Shown here in pieces: positions 1,392 to 13,234 of a DNA stretch of 64,000 nt. Where the stretch lies: positions 7,130,001 to 7,194,000 of the forward strand of contig NZ_CP130713.1 of the NCBI RefSeq assembly GCF_030553055.1. Reading direction: 5' to 3'. The position numbers and the translations under genes are program-made. This stretch comes from Streptomyces sp. XD-27 (GTDB lineage Bacteria > Actinomycetota > Actinomycetes > Streptomycetales > Streptomycetaceae). The notes under the pieces are model-generated. The model worked only from the letters and a program-made list of their open reading frames with translations. It did not search any database and was not told the origin of the DNA. Position 1 is the stretch's first letter; each line of letters begins with the position of its first letter.

Positions 1392-2540
1392 GTGCTTCTG
1401 AAAACGTTCGGCTGGTCGTTAGCGGTCACCGCGCTCGGCCTGGTCGCGGCGGTGTTCTACGGGGGGTGGACCGGCTTCGGGGTCGTGGCGATCCTGTCCA
1501 TCCTCGAGATCTCGGTGTCCTTCGACAACGCCGTGGTCAACGCCGGGATCCTGAAGAAGATGAATGCCTTCTGGCAGAAGACCTTCCTCACCATCGGCGT
1601 CCTGATCGCGGTCTTCGGCATGCGCCTGGTCTTCCCGGTCATGGTCGTCGCCATCAGCGCCAAGATCGGTCCGATCGAAGCGGTACGGCTCGCGCTCGAC
1701 GACAAGGACAAGTACCAGCAGCTGGTGACCGACGCCCACCCGTCGATCGCCGCCTTCGGTGGCATGTTCCTGTTGATGATCTTCCTCGACTTCATCTTCG
1801 AGGACCGGCAGATCAAGTGGCTCGGCTGGCTGGAGCGTCCGCTCGCCAAGCTCGGCAAGGTCGACATGCTCTCCGTCTGCATCGCGCTCATCGTGCTGCT
1901 CGTCTCCGCGATGACCGTCGCCACCAACGCCCACCAGCACGGCGGCATCCATGCGGACAAGGCGGAGACCGTCCTGATCGCCGGCATCGCGGGCTTGATC
2001 ACCTACCTGATCGTCGGCGGCCTCTCCGGCTACTTCGAGAACAGGCTCGAGGAAGAGGAGGAGCGCGAGCACGAGGCCGAGGAAGAGGCCAAGAGGAGCG
2101 GCAAGAAGGTCCCGGCGGTCGTGATGGCCGGCAAGGCCGCGTTCTTCTTGTTCCTCTACCTGGAGGTCCTGGACGCGTCCTTCTCCTTCGACGGCGTCAT
2201 CGGCGCCTTCGCGATCACCAACGACATCGTCCTGATGGCGCTCGGCCTCGGCATCGGCGCGATGTACGTCCGCTCGCTCACGGTCTACCTGGTCCGCCAG
2301 GGCACCCTCGACGACTACGTCTACCTGGAACACGGCGCGCACTACGCGATCGGCGCCCTCGCCGTGATCCTGCTCGTCACCATCCAGTACGAGATCCACG
2401 AGGTCATCACGGGCCTCGTCGGCGTCGTCCTGATCGGCTGGTCCTTCTTCTCCTCGGTCCAGCGCAACCGCAGGCTGGCGGCGGCCGAGGGAAAGGACGC
2501 GGGGTCCAACGAGAAGGCTGAGGTCTCCTCCGGCGTCTGA
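1392..2540 (+). CDS. DUF475 (TerC-like) integral membrane protein
   Basis: A 382-residue multi-pass membrane protein from a GTG start four bases after the terD fragment. The N-terminal helix is followed by ILSILEISVSFDNAVVNAGI and later by the similar YLEVLDASFSFDGVIGAF; these two acidic, Asp-containing intramembrane repeats are the hallmark of DUF475/TerC-like proteins, thought to be metal-ion transporters linked to the Ter stress system. A highly acidic cytoplasmic segment (EEEEEREHEAEEEAKR, about residues 218-233) lies between membrane halves. Length and motifs look complete, so the gene survives although its terD partner is broken. With terD decayed, translation may now depend on its own signals; I see no strong ribosome site. 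Confidence 0.85.
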   Translation: MLLKTFGWSLAVTALGLVAAVFYGGWTGFGVVAILSILEISVSFDNAVVNAGILKKMNAFWQKTFLTIGVLIAVFGMRLVFPVMVVAISAKIGPIEAVRLALDDKDKYQQLVTDAHPSIAAFGGMFLLMIFLDFIFEDRQIKWLGWLERPLAKLGKVDMLSVCIALIVLLVSAMTVATNAHQHGGIHADKAETVLIAGIAGLITYLIVGGLSGYFENRLEEEEEREHEAEEEAKRSGKKVPAVVMAGKAAFFLFLYLEVLDASFSFDGVIGAFAITNDIVLMALGLGIGAMYVRSLTVYLVRQGTLDDYVYLEHGAHYAIGALAVILLVTIQYEIHEVITGLVGVVLIGWSFFSSVQRNRRLAAAEGKDAGSNEKAEVSSGV

Positions 2541-3450: not shown

Positions 3451-4332
3451 ATGCCTTTACAGCGCCCCTTCCGCTTCGGTGTCAACATGTTCGTTCCCGG
3501 ATCGCGACGTGAGTGGATCGCGAAGTGCCGCAGAGCCGAGGAACTCGGTTTCGATGTAGTCGGGGTGGCCGATCATCTGGGGTTCTCCGCGCCGTTTCCA
3601 GCAATGGTGCTCGCAGCCGAAACGACCGAACGGGTACGGCTGACGACGTTCGTGTTGAACACACCGTTCTACAACCCCGTCCTTCTCGCGCGTGACGTGG
3701 CGAGCACCGACCAATTCGTCGACGGGCGTATGGAACTCGGGCTCGGCGCAGGCTACGTGAAGGCCGAGTTCGACACCGCGGAGATACCGTTCCCCAGCGG
3801 CGGAAAGCGGGTCGAACAGCTGGAACAGACCGTCACCACGTTGCGCCGTCTGTTTGCGGACACGGAATATCAGCCGCGTCCGGCCCAACCATCCGGGCCA
3901 CCACTGCTGATTGGGGGCTGGGGCGACCGGCTGCTGCGGCTGGCCGCCACACACGCCGACATCATCGCCTTCACCGGAGGCTGGGCCAACACCACCGGTG
4001 ATGTACTCCAACTGGCCGGAAGCGCGCAGACGGAAGAACGGGTCGCCTACGTGCGCGGCCTACTCGGTGACCGCGCCGACGCCGTGGAGCTCAATCTCCT
4101 GGTGCAGCAGGTGATTCCGCCCGCCGAACGCGCCGCGGTACCTGACAGGTTCGAGCCGCTGCCGCCGGACGCCGAGCACAGCCCCGAGGAACTGCCCAGT
4201 GTGTTGATCGGAACCCCAGCGGAGATGGCGCAACAAATCAAGGAACGTCGCGAACGCTACGGCTTCACCTACTTCACGGTCATGGAATACAACATGGAGA
4301 ACTTCGCGCCGGTCATCGCCGCGCTGCGCTGA
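3451..4332 (+). CDS. LLM-class F420-dependent oxidoreductase
   Basis: A 293-residue luciferase-like monooxygenase TIM barrel. The start FRFGVNMFVPGSRREWIAK, then VVGVADHLG, RVRLTTFVLNTPFYNPVLLA, DGRMELGLGAGYVKAEFDTA and PPLLIGGWGDRLLRLAATHA, match the F420-dependent branch (TIGR03621-like in my recollection). Such enzymes use reduced F420 for hydride transfer to small organic substrates. It is the first intact gene after the transposase remnants and points towards the minus-strand alkaloid-type genes; whether it acts with them is unknown. TATACA at 3439-3444 lies six bases before the ATG and there is no clear ribosome site, so a leaderless transcript is plausible. Confidence 0.85.
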   Translation: MPLQRPFRFGVNMFVPGSRREWIAKCRRAEELGFDVVGVADHLGFSAPFPAMVLAAETTERVRLTTFVLNTPFYNPVLLARDVASTDQFVDGRMELGLGAGYVKAEFDTAEIPFPSGGKRVEQLEQTVTTLRRLFADTEYQPRPAQPSGPPLLIGGWGDRLLRLAATHADIIAFTGGWANTTGDVLQLAGSAQTEERVAYVRGLLGDRADAVELNLLVQQVIPPAERAAVPDRFEPLPPDAEHSPEELPSVLIGTPAEMAQQIKERRERYGFTYFTVMEYNMENFAPVIAALR

Positions 4333-4392
4333 ACTGCACACTTCGCCACAATGCCGCCGACGACGACGGCTGTGAGGGAAAGGGGCGACCCG

Positions 4393-5088
4393 ATGCGTAC
4401 TGGCTCCAGAACTGGTCAGGGAACGGCCGGCGTGAATCCCGCGCTCGCCGACCAGGGAAGCCCCACGACTCTTATGCTGCTACGCCACGGTGAGACGGCA
4501 TTGACACCGGAGAAGCGGTTGTCCGGCAGCGGCGGCTCCGATCCGGCGTTGTCGGAGGCCGGGCTGCGGCAGGCCGAGGCAGCCGCGAGGATGCTCGCCG
4601 CACGCGGCGCGGTGCAGGCGGTGGTGTCCTCACCACTGCGCCGAGCCCAGCAGACGGCCGAGACCGCGGCACGACGGCTGGGCCTGGAAGTCCAAGTCGA
4701 CGAAGGGCTCAGTGAGGCGGATTTCGGTGTCTGGGAGGGACTTACGTTCGCCGAGGTGCGCGAGCGCTACCCGGACGAGCTGGCAGCGTGGCGCGCCTCT
4801 CCGGCGGCGGTGCCGGGCGGAACCGGGGAGACGTTCACCTCGGTTGCGCGCCGGGCCGGACGCTCACGGGACCGGCTCCTGGCGCGGTACAAGGGACAGA
4901 CGGTGTTGGTCGTTTCGCATGTCGGGGTGTTGCGGACGCTCGTTCGGCTGGCGTTGGGCGCGCCGCCCGCGTCGCTGTTCAGGATGGAACTGTCGGCGGC
5001 ATCGCTGTCGGCCGTGGCCTATTACGGGGATGGGACCGCGTCGGTGCAATTGCTGAACGACACGTCGCACCTGACGGACCACCGCTGA
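4393..5088 (+). CDS. Histidine phosphatase (phosphoglycerate-mutase-like) family protein
   Basis: The product (231 residues from ATG 4393) has the catalytic LLRHGET motif near residue 30, VVSSPLRRAQQTAE with the second phosphate-binding Arg, EADFGVWEGLTF and the second catalytic His in VLVVSHVGVLR. It resembles the acid-phosphatase domain of bifunctional RNase HI/phosphatases and CobC-type enzymes, but stands alone; its substrate cannot be read from sequence. I chose ATG 4393 because GAAAGGGG lies about eight bases upstream; an in-frame ATG at 4351 has no such site. It follows the LLM gene by about 60 bases and is probably co-transcribed with it. Confidence 0.85.
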   Translation: MRTGSRTGQGTAGVNPALADQGSPTTLMLLRHGETALTPEKRLSGSGGSDPALSEAGLRQAEAAARMLAARGAVQAVVSSPLRRAQQTAETAARRLGLEVQVDEGLSEADFGVWEGLTFAEVRERYPDELAAWRASPAAVPGGTGETFTSVARRAGRSRDRLLARYKGQTVLVVSHVGVLRTLVRLALGAPPASLFRMELSAASLSAVAYYGDGTASVQLLNDTSHLTDHR

Positions 5089-5134: not shown

Positions 5135-6496
5135 TCAGCGTCGAATCGTCTTGGTGCGCATGAGGAATTCAGCGAGGTAGCCGTCGTGCGGCAGTCCGTG
5201 CTCCATCCACGGGGTCGGATGGTCACCGACGTAGACGTTGGCGATGGTCGGCTCGGCCACCAATGCGTCGATCAGATTCTCGTCGGTGGTGACGGCAGTG
5301 AGGACGAGGGTGTCGCGCAGCGGTCGGATCCCGGCGTCACGGTCCCACGGTGCGATCCACGCACAGGGGAAGCCCAGTTCCATCCCGAGTTGTTCGGCGA
5401 ACGGGCTGTCGAGCTGGTGCACCGCCGGCCGGAGCACCGCGGAACCATCGCCGAGATCGTCGGCGATACCGTCACCGCCGAGCCACGCCTTGGTGCCCGC
5501 TGCCCGCTGCCGCAGATACTTCTCCCACCGACGGGCGGGACCGACGGGCATCACGGGCAGGACTGCGCGTTCGTCCGTCGCGGGCAGGCTGGGCAGCGCG
5601 GCGAGGCGTTCGGCGATCGCCTCGGCCACGGGGGAGGGGTCGCCCTCGACCAGTACGCCGGTGGCGTTGACGCAACCGGTGCCCCCACCACTGCTGATCG
5701 ACTCCACGATGGTGTCGACGATCGGCTCCCACTCGGTTTCGGCGGTGATGAGTATCTTGGAGCGCCCGGGGCCCTGCGGCAGAATGCGTCGGTCGCCCGC
5801 ATATTTGCCCACGACATCCGCACCGCCGTACACCATTCCGAAGTCGGCGTGCCGGAGGATGTCGTCGGCCACGTTGTGGTCGGTGGGCAGCAACGCGATT
5901 CCCTCGTCGCCGAAACCGGCCTTGCGCAGGGCAGTGACCAGCCGATGGGGGGTGAACGGTTCACGACGGGAGGGACGCACGGCAACGCGATAGCCGAGCG
6001 CGAGGGCATCGAACCAACCCTGGTGCACCGCAGGGTGATTGCCCGCCGCATGGACGGCGAACACCTCACCGCGCCGGGTCCACACCGCCGCACCGCCCCG
6101 GGCCCGCGGATCGCGCCACGAGCCGACCGCAGCGGCCGGTCGCGCGTTCTCCACGGTGTGGTGGATCAGCTCGGCGGCCCGTGCGATGTCGTCGGTGGCA
6201 TTGCGCACCACCGTGATCGGTATCCCGGTAACCGCGCTGACGGTGTGCTGATATTCCTCCGGCGTAAGTCCCGCGATCGACTGCGTGGCGAAAGCCCGCC
6301 CCGCCTGTGCGAGTGCCGCGATCCGTGTGTCGACGGGGAGCGCCGGCGCTCGGCGCAGGGCCTTTATCGCGCGGGTGATGTAGAGCGAGGGTGCGAGACT
6401 CAGCGTCGCGACCGGGTTTCCGGCAAGATCTCGAATGGTCTCCTGGCGCCGGGACCGATAGGGGCCGCCGGGGCCGAGAACGTCCAGGGGCAACAT
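5135..6496 (-). CDS. Aldehyde-dehydrogenase-fold acyl reductase (EhpG/LuxC-like)
   Basis: A 453-residue ALDH-superfamily protein. The nucleophile sits in SSGGGTGCVNATGV (Cys ~275), AVHAAGNHPAVHQGWFDALA is the cofactor-loop region and LDSPFAEQLGMELGFPCAWI a conserved C-terminal part. It is not a standard ALDH: the usual EMGG and GQxC contexts are replaced, as in LuxC acyl reductases and in phenazine-pathway enzymes such as EhpG that I recall working with the adenylating enzyme EhpF. Its ATG overlaps the stop of the upstream adenylating-enzyme gene (TGATG), so the two proteins are almost certainly partners: an acid is activated as acyl-AMP, then reduced through an enzyme thioester to an aldehyde. 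Substrate unknown. Confidence 0.75.
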   Translation of the reverse strand: MLPLDVLGPGGPYRSRRQETIRDLAGNPVATLSLAPSLYITRAIKALRRAPALPVDTRIAALAQAGRAFATQSIAGLTPEEYQHTVSAVTGIPITVVRNATDDIARAAELIHHTVENARPAAAVGSWRDPRARGGAAVWTRRGEVFAVHAAGNHPAVHQGWFDALALGYRVAVRPSRREPFTPHRLVTALRKAGFGDEGIALLPTDHNVADDILRHADFGMVYGGADVVGKYAGDRRILPQGPGRSKILITAETEWEPIVDTIVESISSGGGTGCVNATGVLVEGDPSPVAEAIAERLAALPSLPATDERAVLPVMPVGPARRWEKYLRQRAAGTKAWLGGDGIADDLGDGSAVLRPAVHQLDSPFAEQLGMELGFPCAWIAPWDRDAGIRPLRDTLVLTAVTTDENLIDALVAEPTIANVYVGDHPTPWMEHGLPHDGYLAEFLMRTKTIRR

Positions 6497-7554
6497 CAGT
6501 ACACGCCCTCGATCACCTTCGTATCGCCGAAGGACGCCACGGGTGCGACGTCTGCGACCGAATCACCGAAGCCGCCGTCCAGCGGTGCGATCCGGGTTGC
6601 GTAGTCCCGCTCGATGTTGTTGACCAGCAAGGCACTTCGGCTCATGTGATGCAGAACTATCTGCCCGCGGTCGCCGTACGGAACGACCTTGCCGGTGTCG
6701 GGGTCGATCACCCGGAACGTGGTGTACGGAGCGAACGAGTCGAACACGCACGGCTCGTCGGCACCAAGGCCGGGTCGCTCCACCGATGTCCCCAGCATCA
6801 TCGTGCCGCCGTACCCGCCGACGAACGTGGCGCTCGCGAACACCTCGTCGCGCAGCAGATCTCGGGTGTCAGCGTCCAGATGTGTACCACCCCAGATGAT
6901 CGCGCGAACCTTCCGGTTCACCAACTCGACCAGATCGTCGTGCTGCGCGAGGCGCTCCAGCATCGGCGGGGTGGCGAAGAGGACGCCCACGTCCTGGCTG
7001 GTCAGAATGTAGCCGACCTGTTCGATGAGGTGATCAGTGTAGGCGTCGGCCACGTCCATCCGGCCCTGGGCGAGGAGCTTCTTCACCCATCGCGGGTCCA
7101 GATCGATGCTGAAGTTCAGCCCACCCCGAGACATCGCGGTGTCGACCGCCATTGCTCCGACATTGTGCGGCCCGGTGGGAACCGCACTGAGCCAGTCGAC
7201 ATTTCGAGGTACGCCGTGAGAATCCAGTCGCTCACTGAACCATTCGACGCTGCGCCGATGCCACTCCGCGGCGTACATCACTCGCTTGGGCTGCCCTGTG
7301 GTACCGCCGCTTTCGTAGACGGCCGCCCCGTGCTCGTCACCGTAGCCACGGGGAATCAGCTCACGGACGCCGACATCGCGCAGCTCGTCCACCACGTTGG
7401 GAAACAAGCCGAGATCGTCGAAATCCCGGACATCGGTCAGCGGATCGAAGCCGAGGGTTTCGGCCCGTTTCAGCCAGAACGGTGACCCGGTCTCCGGACT
7501 GAAGTGCCACCGCATCATCTCCCGAACGAACTCTCCGCCAGTGTGCTCGACCAT
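6496..7554 (-). CDS. Small acyl-adenylate-forming enzyme (EhpF/LuxE-like, phenazine-biosynthesis type)
   Basis: At 352 residues this is much shorter than ordinary ANL synthetases and close to LuxE and EhpF. The ATP-binding loop is VYESGGTTGQPKRVMY at about residues 79-94; AIIWGGTHLDADTRDLLRDE and FVGGYGGTMMLGTSVE cover the adenine-binding region, and YGDRGQIVLHHM precedes the hinge. The mobile C-terminal domain of full ANL enzymes is lacking. The family activates a carboxylic acid (in phenazine clusters an aromatic acid) as acyl-AMP for a dedicated reductase, which is the next gene. A strong ribosome site GAGAGGAAAG precedes the ATG. About 200 bases separate it from the FAD oxidase gene, with a terminator-like hairpin between them, so it may have its own promoter. 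Confidence 0.75.
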   Translation of the reverse strand: MVEHTGGEFVREMMRWHFSPETGSPFWLKRAETLGFDPLTDVRDFDDLGLFPNVVDELRDVGVRELIPRGYGDEHGAAVYESGGTTGQPKRVMYAAEWHRRSVEWFSERLDSHGVPRNVDWLSAVPTGPHNVGAMAVDTAMSRGGLNFSIDLDPRWVKKLLAQGRMDVADAYTDHLIEQVGYILTSQDVGVLFATPPMLERLAQHDDLVELVNRKVRAIIWGGTHLDADTRDLLRDEVFASATFVGGYGGTMMLGTSVERPGLGADEPCVFDSFAPYTTFRVIDPDTGKVVPYGDRGQIVLHHMSRSALLVNNIERDYATRIAPLDGGFGDSVADVAPVASFGDTKVIEGVY

Positions 7555-7730
7555 GGACTTTCCTCTCGAAAGAATGGAACAAATGCCCGGCGACTGCTAC
7601 GTCGATGACGAAAATGATCCCGGGCATGATCGGTTCGTTGGTCTGGTCATGGGTCTCACCAAACGCCGCTGGAAGAAGCGTTCGACCAGGCGATCCGCTG
7701 CGGACGCTCCGCGAATCCCGACCCGCCACC

Positions 7731-7753
7731 GGGCGGAAGGAAAACCTTCGCCC
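7731..7753 (-). terminator. Hairpin after the FAD oxidoreductase gene
   Basis: GGGCGGAAGG, loop AAAA, CCTTCGCCC: a near-perfect stem with one bulge, about 20 bases past the FAD oxidoreductase stop on the minus strand. It suggests partial or full termination between this gene pair and the downstream adenylation/reductase pair. Confidence 0.5.
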
Positions 7754-7771
7754 GCCGCCCGGTGGACCGGC

Positions 7772-8884
7772 TCACCCAGTCTCGGCCGAACCACTGAGGC
7801 AGCGGTCGGTGGAGAGGCCGGCCGTGTCGGTCCAGGATTCCTTGTCGAGCACGAGGTTTCGGATGATCTCTCCGGCGGCAGGCGCTTGGCACAGTCCCTG
7901 ACCGGAGAATCCAGCCGCGTAGAGGAACGGGCGGGAGCGATCGCGGCCGATGAAAGCCATCCCGTCCGGGCTGACGTCGAGGTCTCCGCTCCACCCGCTT
8001 TCGAGGCCGTTGCCGGCGAGGGTCGGGAAGGTCGTGCCGAGGTGGTGTGACACCCGTTGGAGCCAGGCCTGTCGGGTTTCGTCCGGAGCGGGGCGGCCCA
8101 TCCCGACGAGGATGCGATCTCCCCAGCTTCGAATCCGCAGGCTGGACGGGTGCATGGTCATCGGCAGAGCGTGGCGCGGGGCACTACCAGGGGTGTCGGT
8201 CAGGAGCATTTCGACGGGGTATGTGGTCACAGGAATGTGCACGTCGGCCATGGCGGCGACCTTTCCCGCCCAGGGGCCTGCCGCGCAGACGATGGTGTCG
8301 GCGCGGATGCTGCCCGCAGGCGTGTGGACCCGCCCGTCCGGGTCGATGCCGGTGACGGGGGCTTCCGTGCACAGGGTGGCGCCGGCCTGCTGGGCGGCTG
8401 TGGCATAGCCGCGCACGATCGCGGCGGGGTCGCAGGCGTAGGCCTCGGGTGACCAGGCTGCCGCCAGGATGGTTCGCTCGTCGACCAGCGGGTTGAGCCG
8501 CGCTGCTTCAGCAGGGGTCACGAGTTCGACGTCCACTCCAGCTGCCTGCTGGGCAGCTTGGGTGTGTCGGAAGTCCTGCACCTGCTGTTCGTCGGTGAAC
8601 AGCACGAGTAAGCCGATGCGCTTCAGGCCGAGGTCGGTTCCGGTCCGTTCGGCAAGGGTGTGGTAAGCCGCCAGGCTCCGGGCGGCAAGGCCGCTGATGA
8701 GAGCGTTGCCGGGAAAGTAGGTACGCACAACGCCCGCAGTGGTCCCGGACGATCCCGATCCGAGCGCGCCACGCTCCAGCAGGACGGTACCGACGCCTGA
8801 CTCGGCGAGCTGGCACGCTATTGAGTTGCCGATGACGCCCCCGCCGATGACGACGGCGTCCGCGCGTTGGGGGAGTTGGCTCAT
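7772..8884 (-). CDS. FAD-dependent amine/amino-acid oxidase (DAO family)
   Basis: A 370-residue DAO-family flavoprotein. The dinucleotide-binding VVIGGGVIGNSIACQLAESG is near the N-terminus, GSGSSGTTAGVVRTYFPGNA is the typical flavin loop, and DVSPDGMAFIGRD plus LYAAGFSGQGLCQAPAAGEI the C-terminal FAD-binding end. The family (sarcosine, glycine and D-amino-acid oxidases/dehydrogenases) oxidises C-N bonds to imines. The ATG at 8884 overlaps the stop of the Pictet-Spenglerase-like gene (ATGA), so the two are co-translated. In that setting an attractive role is oxidation of a cyclic amine product (tetrahydro- to dihydro- or aromatic ring) or supply of an imine or keto acid; this is inference. 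Confidence 0.8.
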   Translation of the reverse strand: MSQLPQRADAVVIGGGVIGNSIACQLAESGVGTVLLERGALGSGSSGTTAGVVRTYFPGNALISGLAARSLAAYHTLAERTGTDLGLKRIGLLVLFTDEQQVQDFRHTQAAQQAAGVDVELVTPAEAARLNPLVDERTILAAAWSPEAYACDPAAIVRGYATAAQQAGATLCTEAPVTGIDPDGRVHTPAGSIRADTIVCAAGPWAGKVAAMADVHIPVTTYPVEMLLTDTPGSAPRHALPMTMHPSSLRIRSWGDRILVGMGRPAPDETRQAWLQRVSHHLGTTFPTLAGNGLESGWSGDLDVSPDGMAFIGRDRSRPFLYAAGFSGQGLCQAPAAGEIIRNLVLDKESWTDTAGLSTDRCLSGSAETG

Positions 8885-9849
8885 GACTGGCGGACCGGTT
8901 CGCTGGGGCGCAGCTGGCGCAGGTGATCTCCGGAGTCCCACGGGTACAGGTGGAGATTCCAACCGCCCAAACAGTTGACGTAGAGGGCTAGTTGGCTCGC
9001 CACGCTCAGGAAATCGTCGCGATCGAGCTGGTCGAGGCAGGCCAGGAAGCGCTGGGTGAAACTCCACAGCTGCTCCAGGCCGCAGTAGCCCAGAAACTCA
9101 GCCGGAATACCGACCAGCAGGCGCGTCATGTGACGCAAGGAATCCATCGGCATGCCCTGGACCGCGGCCCGGACCAGACCACCGTAGGTGGCGTACCCCA
9201 GCGGGCGGGTCTCACCGTTGACGAACAACAGAGTGGGCAACACCGTCTCGAAGCTCCCTGCCCCGGAAGGGATCACCCCCTCGTGGAGATCAGCGAGCTC
9301 CTGTGGTGCGGACAGCCAAGCCCGCTCGGTCGCGGTGTACACGTCGTGGATGAGACGGCTCGCGTCGGGATCTGCGGCGGTCAACTGGGGAATACGGTGG
9401 CCGCCTTCGGTTCCCGCCTTGCGGACCTCCACCAGGATCGGCTTCTTCGTCGAATAGACCGAATCCCAGGTCGCCTTCCCGGCCTCCAGTAGTGCGGGCA
9501 TATCCTCCTGCAGGATCCGGCCCACCGGGGATGCCGGCATCGGTTCGGTCAACGTGCCGTACTTGATACCTAAATGCTGTAGCGCGGAGCAGAATACGGT
9601 CCCATCGGGCGCCTCGCGTCGATCTGCTATCCGAGTCGACGCGGACAGATGCAGCAGCGACGGGATCGGTGCCGCGTGATACAGATGCTGTCCCGCCACC
9701 AGCGCGTGTCCCTGCAGACTCTGGTAGGGCAACGCCTCCCACAGCGCGTCGGCAAGTTCAGCGTTGCGGCCGTCGAGTTCCGCGGTCACGGTGATACCCA
9801 GGTCGGGCCAGGCGATCTCGACATGCCGACCAGAAAACGTTTCAGTCAA
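8881..9849 (-). CDS. McbB/KslB-like Pictet-Spenglerase (cucumopine-synthase family)
   Basis: The product (322 residues from TTG 9849) begins HVEIAWPDLGITVTAEL, a cyclophilin-like DUF3830-type fold, continues with LWEALPYQSLQGHALVAGQH, DGTVFCSALQHLGIKYG and LTEPMPASPVGRI, and ends in a helical bundle (IPAEFLGYCGLEQLWSFTQR, LYVNCLGGWNLHLYPW). This layout matches my memory of McbB (marinacarboline pathway) and cucumopine synthase, which condense Trp or His with an aldehyde or keto acid. Glu ~102 in LTE appears to occupy the place of McbB's catalytic glutamate. I prefer TTG 9849 (AAGGGG six bases upstream) to GTG 9906, because the longer start lies in transposase remnant sequence read in the same frame. 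First gene of a probable four-gene set. Confidence 0.75.
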   Translation of the reverse strand: MTETFSGRHVEIAWPDLGITVTAELDGRNAELADALWEALPYQSLQGHALVAGQHLYHAAPIPSLLHLSASTRIADRREAPDGTVFCSALQHLGIKYGTLTEPMPASPVGRILQEDMPALLEAGKATWDSVYSTKKPILVEVRKAGTEGGHRIPQLTAADPDASRLIHDVYTATERAWLSAPQELADLHEGVIPSGAGSFETVLPTLLFVNGETRPLGYATYGGLVRAAVQGMPMDSLRHMTRLLVGIPAEFLGYCGLEQLWSFTQRFLACLDQLDRDDFLSVASQLALYVNCLGGWNLHLYPWDSGDHLRQLRPSEPVRQS

Positions 9850-10545
9850 GATTTTCCCCTTGTTCAGTGAGATGTCGCCGCTGCGATTTCTCTGCGAAAG
9901 AGTCACGGACGGATTCGTTAAGTGCTGTTGCTGGTTGACGGCGAGGAGCGCGTGCAGCAGGCGGTGACCCGTCCGGGGCTGATGCGGATTTTGTGCAGCA
10001 CGCGCCAGCTATTGAGCTGGGCGAAGGGCCGCTCTGCGGGGGCTCGCAGGCGCGCAAGGGCGGTGTTGGCCAGCTTCTCCCAGCCGTTGCGGCTCTTGCC
10101 CTTGGGGCGCTTGATCGGGGGTGTGAACGGTGCCGTCGGCGTCTCGGCAGCCGGAGTCGGCGGTGATCTCCACGTCCTGCTCGGAGGCGGACTCGATGAT
10201 GCCGTCGGCGCGGCCGACGGTCAGGTCGTGCGTGGAGCCGACTCGGACCTCGCCGAGGAAGACCAGCTCGCCTTCGGCGGTGGTCAGCGCCTCGGCGGCG
10301 AGGGCGTCGGCCAGGGTGGGGGGTGGGGGCAGCGCGGCGAGGGCATCGATGCCCTCGTTGACGTAGCGGCGGGCGGTCTCGGTGCCGATCCCGAAGCGGC
10401 ATCCGAGCGGTTCAAAGGTGTCGCCCTTGGCGAGGAAGACCAGCAGCACGAGCGCCTGGCCCCACGGCGCCAGGGCCCGCCAGATACCGCCCGCGTCATC
10501 CCTTCGGGCGGTGGTCAGGTTCTCTCGTCAGGACCCAGCGACACG
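9850..10545 (-). pseudogene. IS5-like transposase remnant directly upstream of the Pictet-Spenglerase-like gene
   Basis: One minus-strand frame encodes the helix-turn-helix part (WRALAPWGQALVLLVFLAKG, FGIGTETARRYVNEGIDALA) and then jumps to LVFLGEVRVGSTHDLTVGRA and DVEITADSGCRDADGTVHTP, showing an internal deletion of the first catalytic block. After a slip near 10110 the other frame gives the C-terminal part TPIKRPKGKSRNGWEKLANT and AERPFAQLNSWRVLHKIRIS. This last frame runs without a stop into the start region of the Pictet-Spenglerase-like gene. The element is inactive, but it has replaced the natural upstream region of that operon, and may supply or have removed its promoter. Confidence 0.75.
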
Positions 10546-11529: not shown

Positions 11530-12174
11530 CTATCGCCTCCTCGGGGCTGCGGCCTCAAGGTCGTCGATGGTGCCGGACATGATGGTCCGGACGTGCTCGG
11601 TGATGTGCTCGGCCGGCCAGTCCCACCAGGCGATGGCCAGAAGGCGGGCGATGTCCTCATCGCTGTAGCGGCGGCGGATGAGTTTGGCCGGGTTGCCGCC
11701 GACGATGCCGTAGTCGGGGACGTCGTCGACGACAACGGAACCGGAGGCGATGATCGCTCCATGACCGATGCGGACGCCGGGCATCACCATGGCCCGGTAT
11801 CCGAACCACACGTCGTTGCCCACCACGGTGTCACCACGGCCGGGCAGGCCGGTGATCAGATCGAAGTGCTCGGCCCACGAACCTCCCATGATCGGGAAGG
11901 GAAACGTCGAAGGGCCGTCCATCCGGTGATTGGCACCGTTCATGATGAACCGCACCCCCTCGCCGAGGGCGCAGAACTTGCCGATGACCAGCTTCTCCGG
12001 CCCGTAGTGATACAGCACGTTGGACGTCTCGAATGCTGTCGGATCGTCCGGGTCGTCGTAGTAGGAGAACTCTCCGACGTCGATCAGCGGCGAGGTGATC
12101 AGCGGCCTGAGCAGTACCAGACGCGGCTGGTCCGGCATCGGGTGAACCACGTTCGGATCTGCGGGAACTGGCAT
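11530..12174 (-). CDS. Vat/CatB-family (xenobiotic) O-acetyltransferase
   Basis: A 214-residue left-handed beta-helix acetyltransferase, the normal length for the Vat/CatB class. It shows YYDDPDDPTAFETSNVLYHY, the catalytic-His region FIMNGANHRMDGPSTFPF, and hexapeptide repeats VVGNDVWFGYRAMVMPGVRI, GHGAIIASGSVVVDDVPDYG and IVGGNPAKLIRRRY. Members use acetyl-CoA to acetylate hydroxyls of streptogramin A, chloramphenicol or other xenobiotics; which substrate applies cannot be told. The ATG at 12174 follows GTGAGGAG. It looks intact amid decayed genes, so it may be under selection, for example as self- or cross-resistance. Confidence 0.85.
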   Translation of the reverse strand: MPVPADPNVVHPMPDQPRLVLLRPLITSPLIDVGEFSYYDDPDDPTAFETSNVLYHYGPEKLVIGKFCALGEGVRFIMNGANHRMDGPSTFPFPIMGGSWAEHFDLITGLPGRGDTVVGNDVWFGYRAMVMPGVRIGHGAIIASGSVVVDDVPDYGIVGGNPAKLIRRRYSDEDIARLLAIAWWDWPAEHITEHVRTIMSGTIDDLEAAAPRRR

Positions 12175-12256
12175 GACGAGTCGACTCCTCACAGGGAAAT
12201 GCAGGTGGAAATGATCAGCATGCCAGCCAAGCCACGGCCGGCCACGCACGGGCCCG

Positions 12257-13234
12257 TCAGGCCGGGTATCCGCCGTCGGCGGTGATGGTGGCGCCGGTGA
12301 TGTAGGCGGCGTCGGGGCCGGAGAGGTAGGCGACGAGGCCTGCGATCTCCTCCGGGGTGCCGAAACGGCGAAGGGCCGTGGCCGTGGTCATGACGTTGTG
12401 TGCGCGGCTGTCGGCAGAGGTCAGGTCGGTGCGGATGGGATCGGGCTGGATGTTGTTGACCGTGATCCCGCGAGTACCGAGATCACGGGCGAGGGCGCGG
12501 GTCATGCCGGCGAGGGCGGCTTTGCTGGTGACGTACGCGGACAGGGTGCCGAAAGGGGGCCAGTCGGCCTCGTTGAGCGGGGCGCCGGTCCGCAGCCGCT
12601 GCGGTAGGTCAGGGTTGGCCAGTGCCCACGCACCGACGGTGGCGACGTCGGCGAGTCCCGCTTCGATGTCTGCCGCCACCTCGGCCCGGTCGCGTCCGGG
12701 GCGGTTGACCAGCAGCGCGGTCGGCCACTGGGCACGCACGTCCCGCAGCAGTTCCTCATCCCCCAGATGCAGCAGGTGCACGTAGGCGAGGTTCAGCGGC
12801 GCGAGTTCGCTCACCAGATGGCGGTAGGTGTCGGGACCGGTGCTGCCCTCGTCCACGCGGCCCATCGGCGCGCCCGGCGACAGGCGGAGCCCCGTACGCT
12901 CGCCGCCGATCTCCGCGCTGACGGCCTGGGCTGTCTCCACGGTCAGTCGGGCGCGGTTGGCGAGGGAACCGCCGTAGATGTCATCACGGTGGTTGGAGCC
13001 CTCGCCGAGGAACTGGTGCAGCAGGTAACCGTTCGCGCCGTGGATCTCGACCGCGTCGGCGCCCGCCCGGATCGCGCGTGCGGCAGCCCGACGGAAGTCG
13101 TCGACCGTGGCGCGCACTTCCCCGGTGGTCAGCGCGCGCGGCATGGGGATGTCCTGCATCCCGGCCGCGGTGAACATCTGCTGCCCGGGGGCGATCGCCG
13201 AGGGCGCCACCGGCTGCCGGTGGTGGTCGGCCAC
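12257..13234 (-). pseudogene. Chimera of an Old Yellow Enzyme and a short-chain dehydrogenase, joined in frame
   Basis: One open frame of 325 residues with two half-enzymes. The first ~230 residues are OYE-like: PVAPSAIAPGQQMFTAAGMQ, FRRAAARAIRAGADAVEIHG with ANGYLLHQFLGEGSNHRDD, and VATVGAWALANPDLPQRL. It lacks the first ~100 residues with the flavin-binding N-terminus. From about residue 231 it switches to the C-terminal half of an SDR: SAYVTSKAALAGMTRALARD (catalytic YxxxK), GITVNNIQPDPIRTDL and YITGATITADGGYPA, without its Rossmann nucleotide-binding half. Both halves lack essential parts, so I call it a pseudogene produced by a deletion that happened to keep frame. Confidence 0.75.

Follow-up and report, generated by a model that had tools for sequence, protein, structure and literature searches.

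The intact six-gene set described here, from the soil bacterium Streptomyces sp. XD-27, is probably a cluster for a β-carboline of the pyridindolol type, pyridindolol being a known alkaloid derived from tryptophan. It was found in a stretch of 64,000 nucleotides, which is called the window below. The product assignment relies on one published strain in which the gene set occurs and pyridindolol was detected, and on a known producer that carries a syntenic region. Six gene families have been reported as a putative pyridindolol cluster in Streptomyces sp. ID38640, a strain in which LC-MS detected pyridindolol; S. alboverticillatus, a producer, has a syntenic region with over 90% identity (Iorio et al. 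2021; PMC7955054). The published assignment was made with no knock-out of any cluster gene, and it left the roles of the ligase and the phosphatase open.

The cluster of ID38640 comprises a Pictet-Spenglerase (PS), an FAD oxidoreductase, an AMP ligase, an aldehyde dehydrogenase, a histidine phosphatase and an LLM F420 oxidoreductase, and all six are present in one locus of the window. In this order, the products have 322, 370, 352, 453, 218 and 293 aa in ID38640 and 322, 370, 352, 453, 245 (start uncertain) and 293 aa here, the match being one of families and sizes. The flanks differ: an AraC regulator and flavin reductases are given for ID38640, whereas a transposase fragment and a Vat-like gene border the genes of the window. 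The gene set had therefore been published as a proposal in 2021, and the first-pass annotation, which regarded the combination as not described, has to be amended on this point.

Gene content and intactness of the locus

Four open reading frames had been placed together on the minus strand, and all were found there: a McbB-type PS (8881-9849, 322 aa, TTG start), an FAD amine/imine oxidase of the DAO family (7772-8884, 370 aa; PF01266, 214 bits), an EhpF/LuxE-like adenylating enzyme (6496-7554, 352 aa; AMP-binding, 46 bits) and an EhpG/LuxC-like acyl reductase of the ALDH superfamily (5135-6496, 453 aa; PF00171 Aldedh, 44 bits). The ATGA overlap of the PS and FAD oxidase genes and the one-base TGATG overlap of the LuxE-like and LuxC-like genes were likewise confirmed. 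The four-gene reading was nevertheless incomplete, overlooking two plus-strand genes, namely those for an F420-dependent LLM oxidoreductase (3451-4332, 293 aa; TIGR03621, 349 bits against a cut-off of 213) and a histidine phosphatase (4351-5088; PF00300, 197 bits; RHGE at residue 45), the start codon of the latter being uncertain. The true start of the FAD oxidase is the ATG at 8884. The TTG start of the PS, which all 10 aligned relatives retain, lies behind an AAGGGG ribosome site.

Comparison of the cluster genes with those of five relatives gave dN/dS values of 0.14-0.47, revealing purifying selection and bearing out the earlier view that the cluster is intact; 28 of 30 gene comparisons tried were used, one orthologue having been missed by the gene finder and one value being undefined. 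The remark that the region is decayed holds on the upstream side, where a transposase fragment (10009-10449) stops some 160 bases short of the PS start and a chimeric OYE/SDR open reading frame occupies 12257-13234. A scan for sigma-70 promoters returned one site against 0.7 expected. A hairpin seen by eye between the FAD and LuxE-like genes (about 7727-7766) was considered as a terminator and rejected: the terminator scan did not find one, and the spacer, 42-543 bases long and unconserved in 10 relatives, argues against one there.

The Pictet-Spenglerase and FAD oxidase core

The protein encoded at 8881-9849 belongs to the McbB/cucumopine-synthase family, as had been claimed. A profile search matched PF18631 (Cucumopine_C) with 151 bits, over the cut-off, and residues 8-313 aligned with McbB (PDB 3x27) at E 1.4e-86. 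The structure comparison agreed with the profile: in Foldseek, a predicted model of mean pLDDT 65.6 had 3x27 as its best match (E 1.2e-16, TM 0.71), and the six matches that reached an E of 0.001 or lower were all McbB or KslB. A search of NCBIfam gave no family for the PS. Both domains, including the Cucumopine_C domain, stand in the McbB order. KslB entries seem to have the domain order swapped, since their counterpart of residues 10-143 of the window protein is found in the C-terminal half (182-315 in 9ns6). McbB (marinacarboline) and KslB (kitasetaline) share the Pictet-Spenglerase family with the window protein, and L-tryptophan is bound in their solved entries. All 81 homologues have Arg77, His92, Tyr97 and Glu102, and, with a 21-residue tag offset taken in the chain numbering, Arg77, His92 and Glu102 align with Arg72, His87 and Glu97 of McbB. 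Arg72 and His87 are presumably catalytic residues of McbB. Glu97 is given as catalytic in one secondary passage. The window protein is thus a McbB-type Pictet-Spenglerase, predicted to turn over L-tryptophan and an aldehyde. Comparison of specificity positions between 47 phosphatase-linked and 33 other PS (L113 left out) gave five positions that distinguish the two groups, none of them cationic, and so lends no support to a phosphate pocket.

The gene neighbourhoods of the PS were surveyed in 81 loci, starting from an alignment of close relatives, of which 80 of 116 were kept. In 14 of these 80, contig ends cut the locus to less than 20 kb, and absences there are soft. Genes of the relatives were called with a codon-usage finder; tblastn reproduced the counts and recovered one further gene, the L049 phosphatase, which the finder had missed. 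The FAD oxidase shares the locus with the PS in 80 of 81 cases, and the adenylating/reducing pair is absent from 66. The suggestion that the FAD enzyme aromatises the new ring is plausible. According to Table 4 of PMC7955054, streptonigrin StnK2 (PS) and StnP2 (FAD enzyme) are 49% and 39% identical to the ID38640 orthologues, respectively, and most other sequences of the pyridindolol cluster lack a counterpart in the streptonigrin system.

Probable roles of the EhpF/EhpG-like pair and the phosphatase

The LuxE-like protein matches the EhpF structures 3hgu and 3l2k over residues 7-352 (E 2e-78), in agreement with its earlier description as EhpF-like, and carries an adenylation motif, SGGTTGQPK, at residue 82. 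It is 39.8% identical to the AMP-binding protein of a Pantoea phenazine operon, and the LuxC-like protein is 35% identical to the ALDH-family protein of the same operon, in which the two genes adjoin and overlap by one base, in the order seen in the window. Cys275 of the LuxC-like reductase is invariant in 23 of 23 sequences and, by analogy with the ALDH superfamily, would be the catalytic cysteine. With the LuxC profile PF05893, at E up to 0.1, 12 of the 23 alignment members match and the window protein does not. At 90% identity or more, the LuxC-like protein occurs in exactly 3 of 296 genomes, each time adjoining a PS.

The EhpF and EhpG relatives in Pantoea (35-40% identical) and Proteus stand in a phenazine context, as opposed to the β-carboline context here. 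Phenazine operons yield an aromatic product that bears the carboxyl, and the role of EhpF/EhpG in them is the reduction of an aromatic carboxyl. The Pantoea pair is therefore a precedent for the kind of reduction that the 3-hydroxymethyl group of pyridindolol needs. Regarding the two roles offered for the pair by the first-pass annotation, 66 of the 81 loci have a PS but no pair, all but one of the 66 with the FAD enzyme, and some of these PS are up to 85% identical to that of the window; the core is thus independent of the pair. This distribution makes reduction of the ring carboxyl, the second of the two roles, more probable for the pair than the supply of an aldehyde to the PS.

Of the 46 clusters that have the LuxE/LuxC pair and/or a carbamoyltransferase, 45 contain the histidine phosphatase, as against 0 of 35 others. 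This enzyme and the housekeeping paralogue are distinct. Six Nocardia genomes carry a cluster phosphatase with 71-80% identity to that of the window, and a second copy of their own with only 46-51%, which indicates that the phosphatase travels with the cluster. A single recruitment of the phosphatase is weakly supported in a rooted tree (82/59). The distribution of the phosphatase among the clusters and its co-travel into Nocardia point to a phosphorylated aldehyde as the PS substrate.

Proposed pathway and possible modular organisation of the family

We infer every chemical step, as well as the step order, as follows. The PS would join L-tryptophan and a phosphorylated C3 aldehyde to give 1-(dihydroxyethyl phosphate)-tetrahydro-β-carboline-3-carboxylate, the tetrahydro-β-carboline ring would be aromatised by the FAD oxidase, and the histidine phosphatase would take off the phosphate. 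The EhpF-like enzyme may then adenylate the 3-carboxylate for conversion by the EhpG-like enzyme to the 3-aldehyde, and the F420 enzyme or a host reductase would carry out the last reduction to the 3-hydroxymethyl group; the F420 enzyme may also set the side-chain carbinol. The stereochemistry bears on the donor. In a synthesis of (R)-pyridindolol, L-glyceraldehyde was the source of chirality (PMC6274020), and the R-(-) form is also named in reference titles. The configuration of (R)-pyridindolol is that of L-glyceraldehyde, and is thus not accounted for by D-glyceraldehyde-3-phosphate on its own; used directly, this donor would lead to the opposite centre.

One solution keeps pyridindolol as the product and sets the stereocentre late: either the PS would condense tryptophan with the phosphate of a C3 keto-aldehyde, or ring oxidation would leave an intermediate that tautomerises to a 1-acyl form, and the F420 enzyme would reduce the ketone to the (R)-carbinol. 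Besides accounting for a configuration that is not directly obtainable from D-glyceraldehyde-3-phosphate, this route is in line with the oxaloacetaldehyde reported for McbB (PMC7024544) and with the confinement of the F420 enzyme to loci with only the LuxE/LuxC module (11 of 12; 0 of 69 others). That confinement is confounded by shared ancestry, the 11 Streptomyces loci of this type forming one clade (support 98) whose nesting among Nocardia rests on 80-92, and we regard the route as possible yet rather unlikely.

Departing further from the proposed pathway, the pair could act upstream, converting some carboxylic acid to the aldehyde for the PS and giving a new alkaloid. A PS does need an aldehyde or keto acid, and by family the pair is an acid-to-aldehyde module; the many close PS without it, its relatives in phenazine operons (a Pantoea record and a Proteus paper) and the published detection of pyridindolol, which fits ring-carboxyl reduction, make this very unlikely. 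Silencing in this strain, with intact genes unexpressed after transposase insertion upstream, would be consistent with the fragment close to the PS start and the decayed neighbours; however, it is improbable in view of the dN/dS values, of a transposase-derived flank visibly common to at least two relatives keeping the six genes (L044 and L046), and of the stretch just before the start codon, which is alike in most of the 10 aligned relatives, though not in L050, L051 and L089.

Beyond pyridindolol, a carbamoyltransferase module marks a sister family in 34 of 81 loci. The carbamoyltransferase/deaminase/SRPBCC module occurs without the pair in 31 loci, and both modules are present in three, of which two are from Nocardia and one is from Streptomyces. 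Among the strains with the carbamoyltransferase branch are S. cellostaticus, S. diastatochromogenes and S. echinatus. The genome of the window contains an apparent decayed copy of the sister cluster, and the literature searched returned no paper on carbamoyltransferase-bearing β-carboline clusters. Xanthine dehydrogenase was ruled out as an enzyme of the sister cluster only, since it occurs in 54 of 296 genomes; it is present in all 11 genomes with both a PS and a carbamoyltransferase (Fisher p 3e-9, kinship ignored). Tentatively, and with somewhat more doubt than confidence, these clusters may be read as a modular actinobacterial alkaloid family, with a core of PS, FAD oxidase and dedicated phosphatase acting on a phosphorylated sugar-derived aldehyde, and with swapped end modules. 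These would be EhpF/EhpG in the pyridindolol branch, where the F420 enzyme would be responsible for the (R)-carbinol, carbamoyltransferase/deaminase/SRPBCC in the sister branch, or both; the sister branch would make O-carbamoylated β-carbolines, which a molybdenum hydroxylase might oxidise.

What at first seemed a new lead is now tied to a published, still unproven assignment of genes to a metabolite, and this assignment becomes a series of testable steps, namely the role of the phosphatase, the role of the ligase/reductase pair and the stereochemical problem with the obvious aldehyde donor. In addition, the comparison indicates a larger sister family in Streptomyces and Nocardia, made up of carbamoyltransferase-bearing β-carboline clusters.

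The Pictet-Spenglerase cluster and its published counterpart

The gene cluster around the Pictet-Spenglerase (PS; 8881-9849, minus strand) is real, intact, conserved and biosynthetic, and its product is most likely pyridindolol, an assignment already proposed in print for such a cluster. The four minus-strand genes, which the first-pass annotation had judged apparently intact, were confirmed as real and intact. The proposed membership of the PS in the McbB/cucumopine synthase family, for which the first-pass annotation had made a structural match the test, was also borne out by a PF18631 match of 151 bits, an alignment with McbB (PDB 3x27) over residues 8-313 (E 1.4e-86), and a structural model, predicted with modest quality (mean pLDDT 65.6), to which McbB is the nearest solved structure and KslB the second. 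McbB and the window protein share one order of the two domains, which is apparently swapped in the PDB entries of KslB. R77, H92 and E102 of the window PS, invariant in 81/81 homologues, align with the catalytic residues R72, H87 and E97 of McbB; Glu97 is named in a passage of a secondary source. The FAD enzyme, a DAO-family oxidase (7772-8884, minus strand), starts at 8884 with an ATGA overlap with the PS. An F420-dependent oxidoreductase (3451-4332, plus strand) and a histidine phosphatase (4351-5088, plus strand) converge on the four minus-strand genes and travel with them.

The section of PMC7955054 on Streptomyces sp. ID38640 reports pyridindolol detected by mass, MS2 and UV, together with a cluster of the same six families (322, 370, 352, 453, 218 and 293 aa). 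The window agrees with it in all six families and, apart from the phosphatase with its uncertain start, in sizes, as compared through the published table. Because these families are in print, the claim that the combination is undescribed was wrong. According to the same section, S. alboverticillatus, a known producer, has a syntenic region with >90% identity, and the authors propose a route in which the PS joins tryptophan to a C3 unit that may be glyceraldehyde (phosphate), with aromatization and carboxyl reduction as further steps. The ligase and phosphatase are left without a role there, and the section contains no mutant of the cluster.

Distribution of the accessory modules

Among 296 genomes near that of the window, a PS match was found in 18 (15 near full length, three as fragments only). 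The LuxC-like protein occurs at ≥90% identity in exactly three, each time beside a PS; in another 42 genomes, the matches at E 1e-100 are all to paralogues (≤62%). A carbamoyltransferase (CT), marking a sister branch, is present at ≥70% in 12 genomes, 11 of which also carry a PS (G017 does not); xanthine dehydrogenase occurs in all 11 and in 43 other genomes.

When named genomes were scanned, 116 relatives emerged; the 80 that were kept make 81 loci with the window, and these were sorted by gene calls, repeated by tblastn. The FAD enzyme is found in 80/81 (exception, L063), and in L069 it does not adjoin the PS. The LuxE/LuxC pair alone is present in 12 loci, CT alone in 31, both in three hybrid loci and neither in 35. 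Among the sister clusters (L052-L088, for example L062 and L074; also L036), the CT-only loci contain PS, FAD oxidase, CT, SRPBCC protein and histidine phosphatase in 31/31, a GuaD-like deaminase in 25/31 and xanthine dehydrogenase in 18/31. A literature search, with most subscription journals outside its coverage, returned nothing relevant on carbamoyltransferase with Pictet-Spenglerase or beta-carboline. The 35 loci lacking both modules (33 from Nonomuraea and Actinomadura, two from Streptomyces) have, where sampled, a P450 and a phosphomannose-isomerase (PMI)-like or AMP-ligase gene. L090-L123 except L113 (Nonomuraea, Actinomadura) show PS and FAD oxidase with no phosphatase, followed in many by a gene of the family sampled as P450 and one of that sampled as PMI-like or AMP ligase.

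Suggested roles of the reducing pair and the phosphatase

In phenazine operons, a pair of the same kind as the window's LuxE/EhpF-like (6496-7554, minus strand) and LuxC/EhpG-like (5135-6496, minus strand) genes is credited with reducing an aromatic carboxylic acid. The EhpF match spans the whole LuxE-like protein (E 2e-78), and an adjacent pair with a one-base overlap in a Pantoea phenazine operon matches both genes (39.8% and 35.1%). The LuxC-like protein is a clear member of the ALDH superfamily with an invariant Cys275; the formal LuxC profile matches 12/23 of its alignment, the window's own protein not being among them. A passage of PMC11278526 shows the annotation ehpF-ehpG in a phenazine operon of Proteus, with gene lengths nearly equal to those of the window pair. 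Since the pair is absent in 66/81 loci, the PS is independent of it, and the pair is, judging from this distribution, probably a tailoring module and not the aldehyde supply of the PS. Second LuxC-like and LuxE-like fragments (48% and 55%) lie side by side elsewhere in the window's genome (G000:C1:1135515-1136294; L124 9516-10295).

The phosphatase is present in 45/46 loci with the pair and/or CT, the sole exception being the distant member L113 from Nocardia brevicatena, and in 0/35 others (gene calls, repeated by tblastn); it belongs to the cluster. The F420 enzyme is found in 11/12 LuxE/LuxC-only loci and 0/69 others. A phosphatase paralogue elsewhere in the window's genome is 73% identical. 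A tree was built from ten Streptomyces genomes, each contributing two copies, and from a further ten cluster copies of named loci; a single branch (99/99) splits its 20 cluster copies from its 10 housekeeping copies. In six Nocardia genomes, the cluster phosphatase is 71-80% identical to that of the window and the other copy 46-51%. Rooted on Nocardia copies, the best tree places 22 cluster phosphatases in one clade; as its support is weak (82/59), a single recruitment is the favoured reading.

Because the phosphatase is kept across CT and LuxE/LuxC clusters, a phosphorylated aldehyde donor would fit; against this, the PS alignment contains no cationic position marking the PS of phosphatase-linked clusters. 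Natural pyridindolol is presumably the (R) form, going by reference titles in which R-(-) stands. D-glyceraldehyde-3-phosphate would give (S) by CIP reasoning. Either the donor is not D-glyceraldehyde-3-phosphate or the centre is reset, with the F420 enzyme as a candidate for this step. In a passage of PMC6274020, the chirality of synthetic (R)-pyridindolol derives from L-glyceraldehyde.

Flanks and evolution of the cluster

A transposase fragment (10009-10449, minus strand) lies just upstream of the PS, and a flank resembling it precedes the aligned PS in L044 and L046. Beyond it are a hexapeptide acetyltransferase (11530-12249, minus strand) close to the streptogramin acetyltransferases of the Vat type (251.7 bits against a cut-off of 300 bits) and a chimeric ORF (12257-13234, minus strand), which looks like fused remnants of the C-terminal parts of an old yellow enzyme and a short-chain dehydrogenase. 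On the other side, a DUF475/TerC-like membrane protein gene (1392-2540, plus strand; family name taken from the L044 relative) is near the cluster in 8/81 loci, the window counted.

In a quick-method PS tree of 81 rows, the 11 LuxE/LuxC-only loci from Streptomyces group together as one clade (support 98); its neighbours (support 80-92) are CT-bearing loci from Nocardia, some of which have the pair as well. On the simplest reading of this topology, a CT cluster would have gained the pair and lost its CT module later. A decayed CT-type sister cluster is probable in the window's own genome (G000:C1:1145600-1152300; L125), where the xanthine dehydrogenase trio (90-92%) and GuaD-like gene (67%) are kept, the PS has shrunk to a fragment of 36 residues, and the SRPBCC protein survives as a weak fragment (38% over 45 residues). 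With xanthine dehydrogenase widespread in the genus, the PS fragment carries most weight. Searches for a CT gave no match in the surrounding 34 kb at E 1e-3, nor in the genome as a whole at E 1e-120. Beyond the published proposal, the present analysis offers comparison-based suggestions for the roles of the phosphatase and of the ligase/reductase pair, an objection from stereochemistry, and the sister family.
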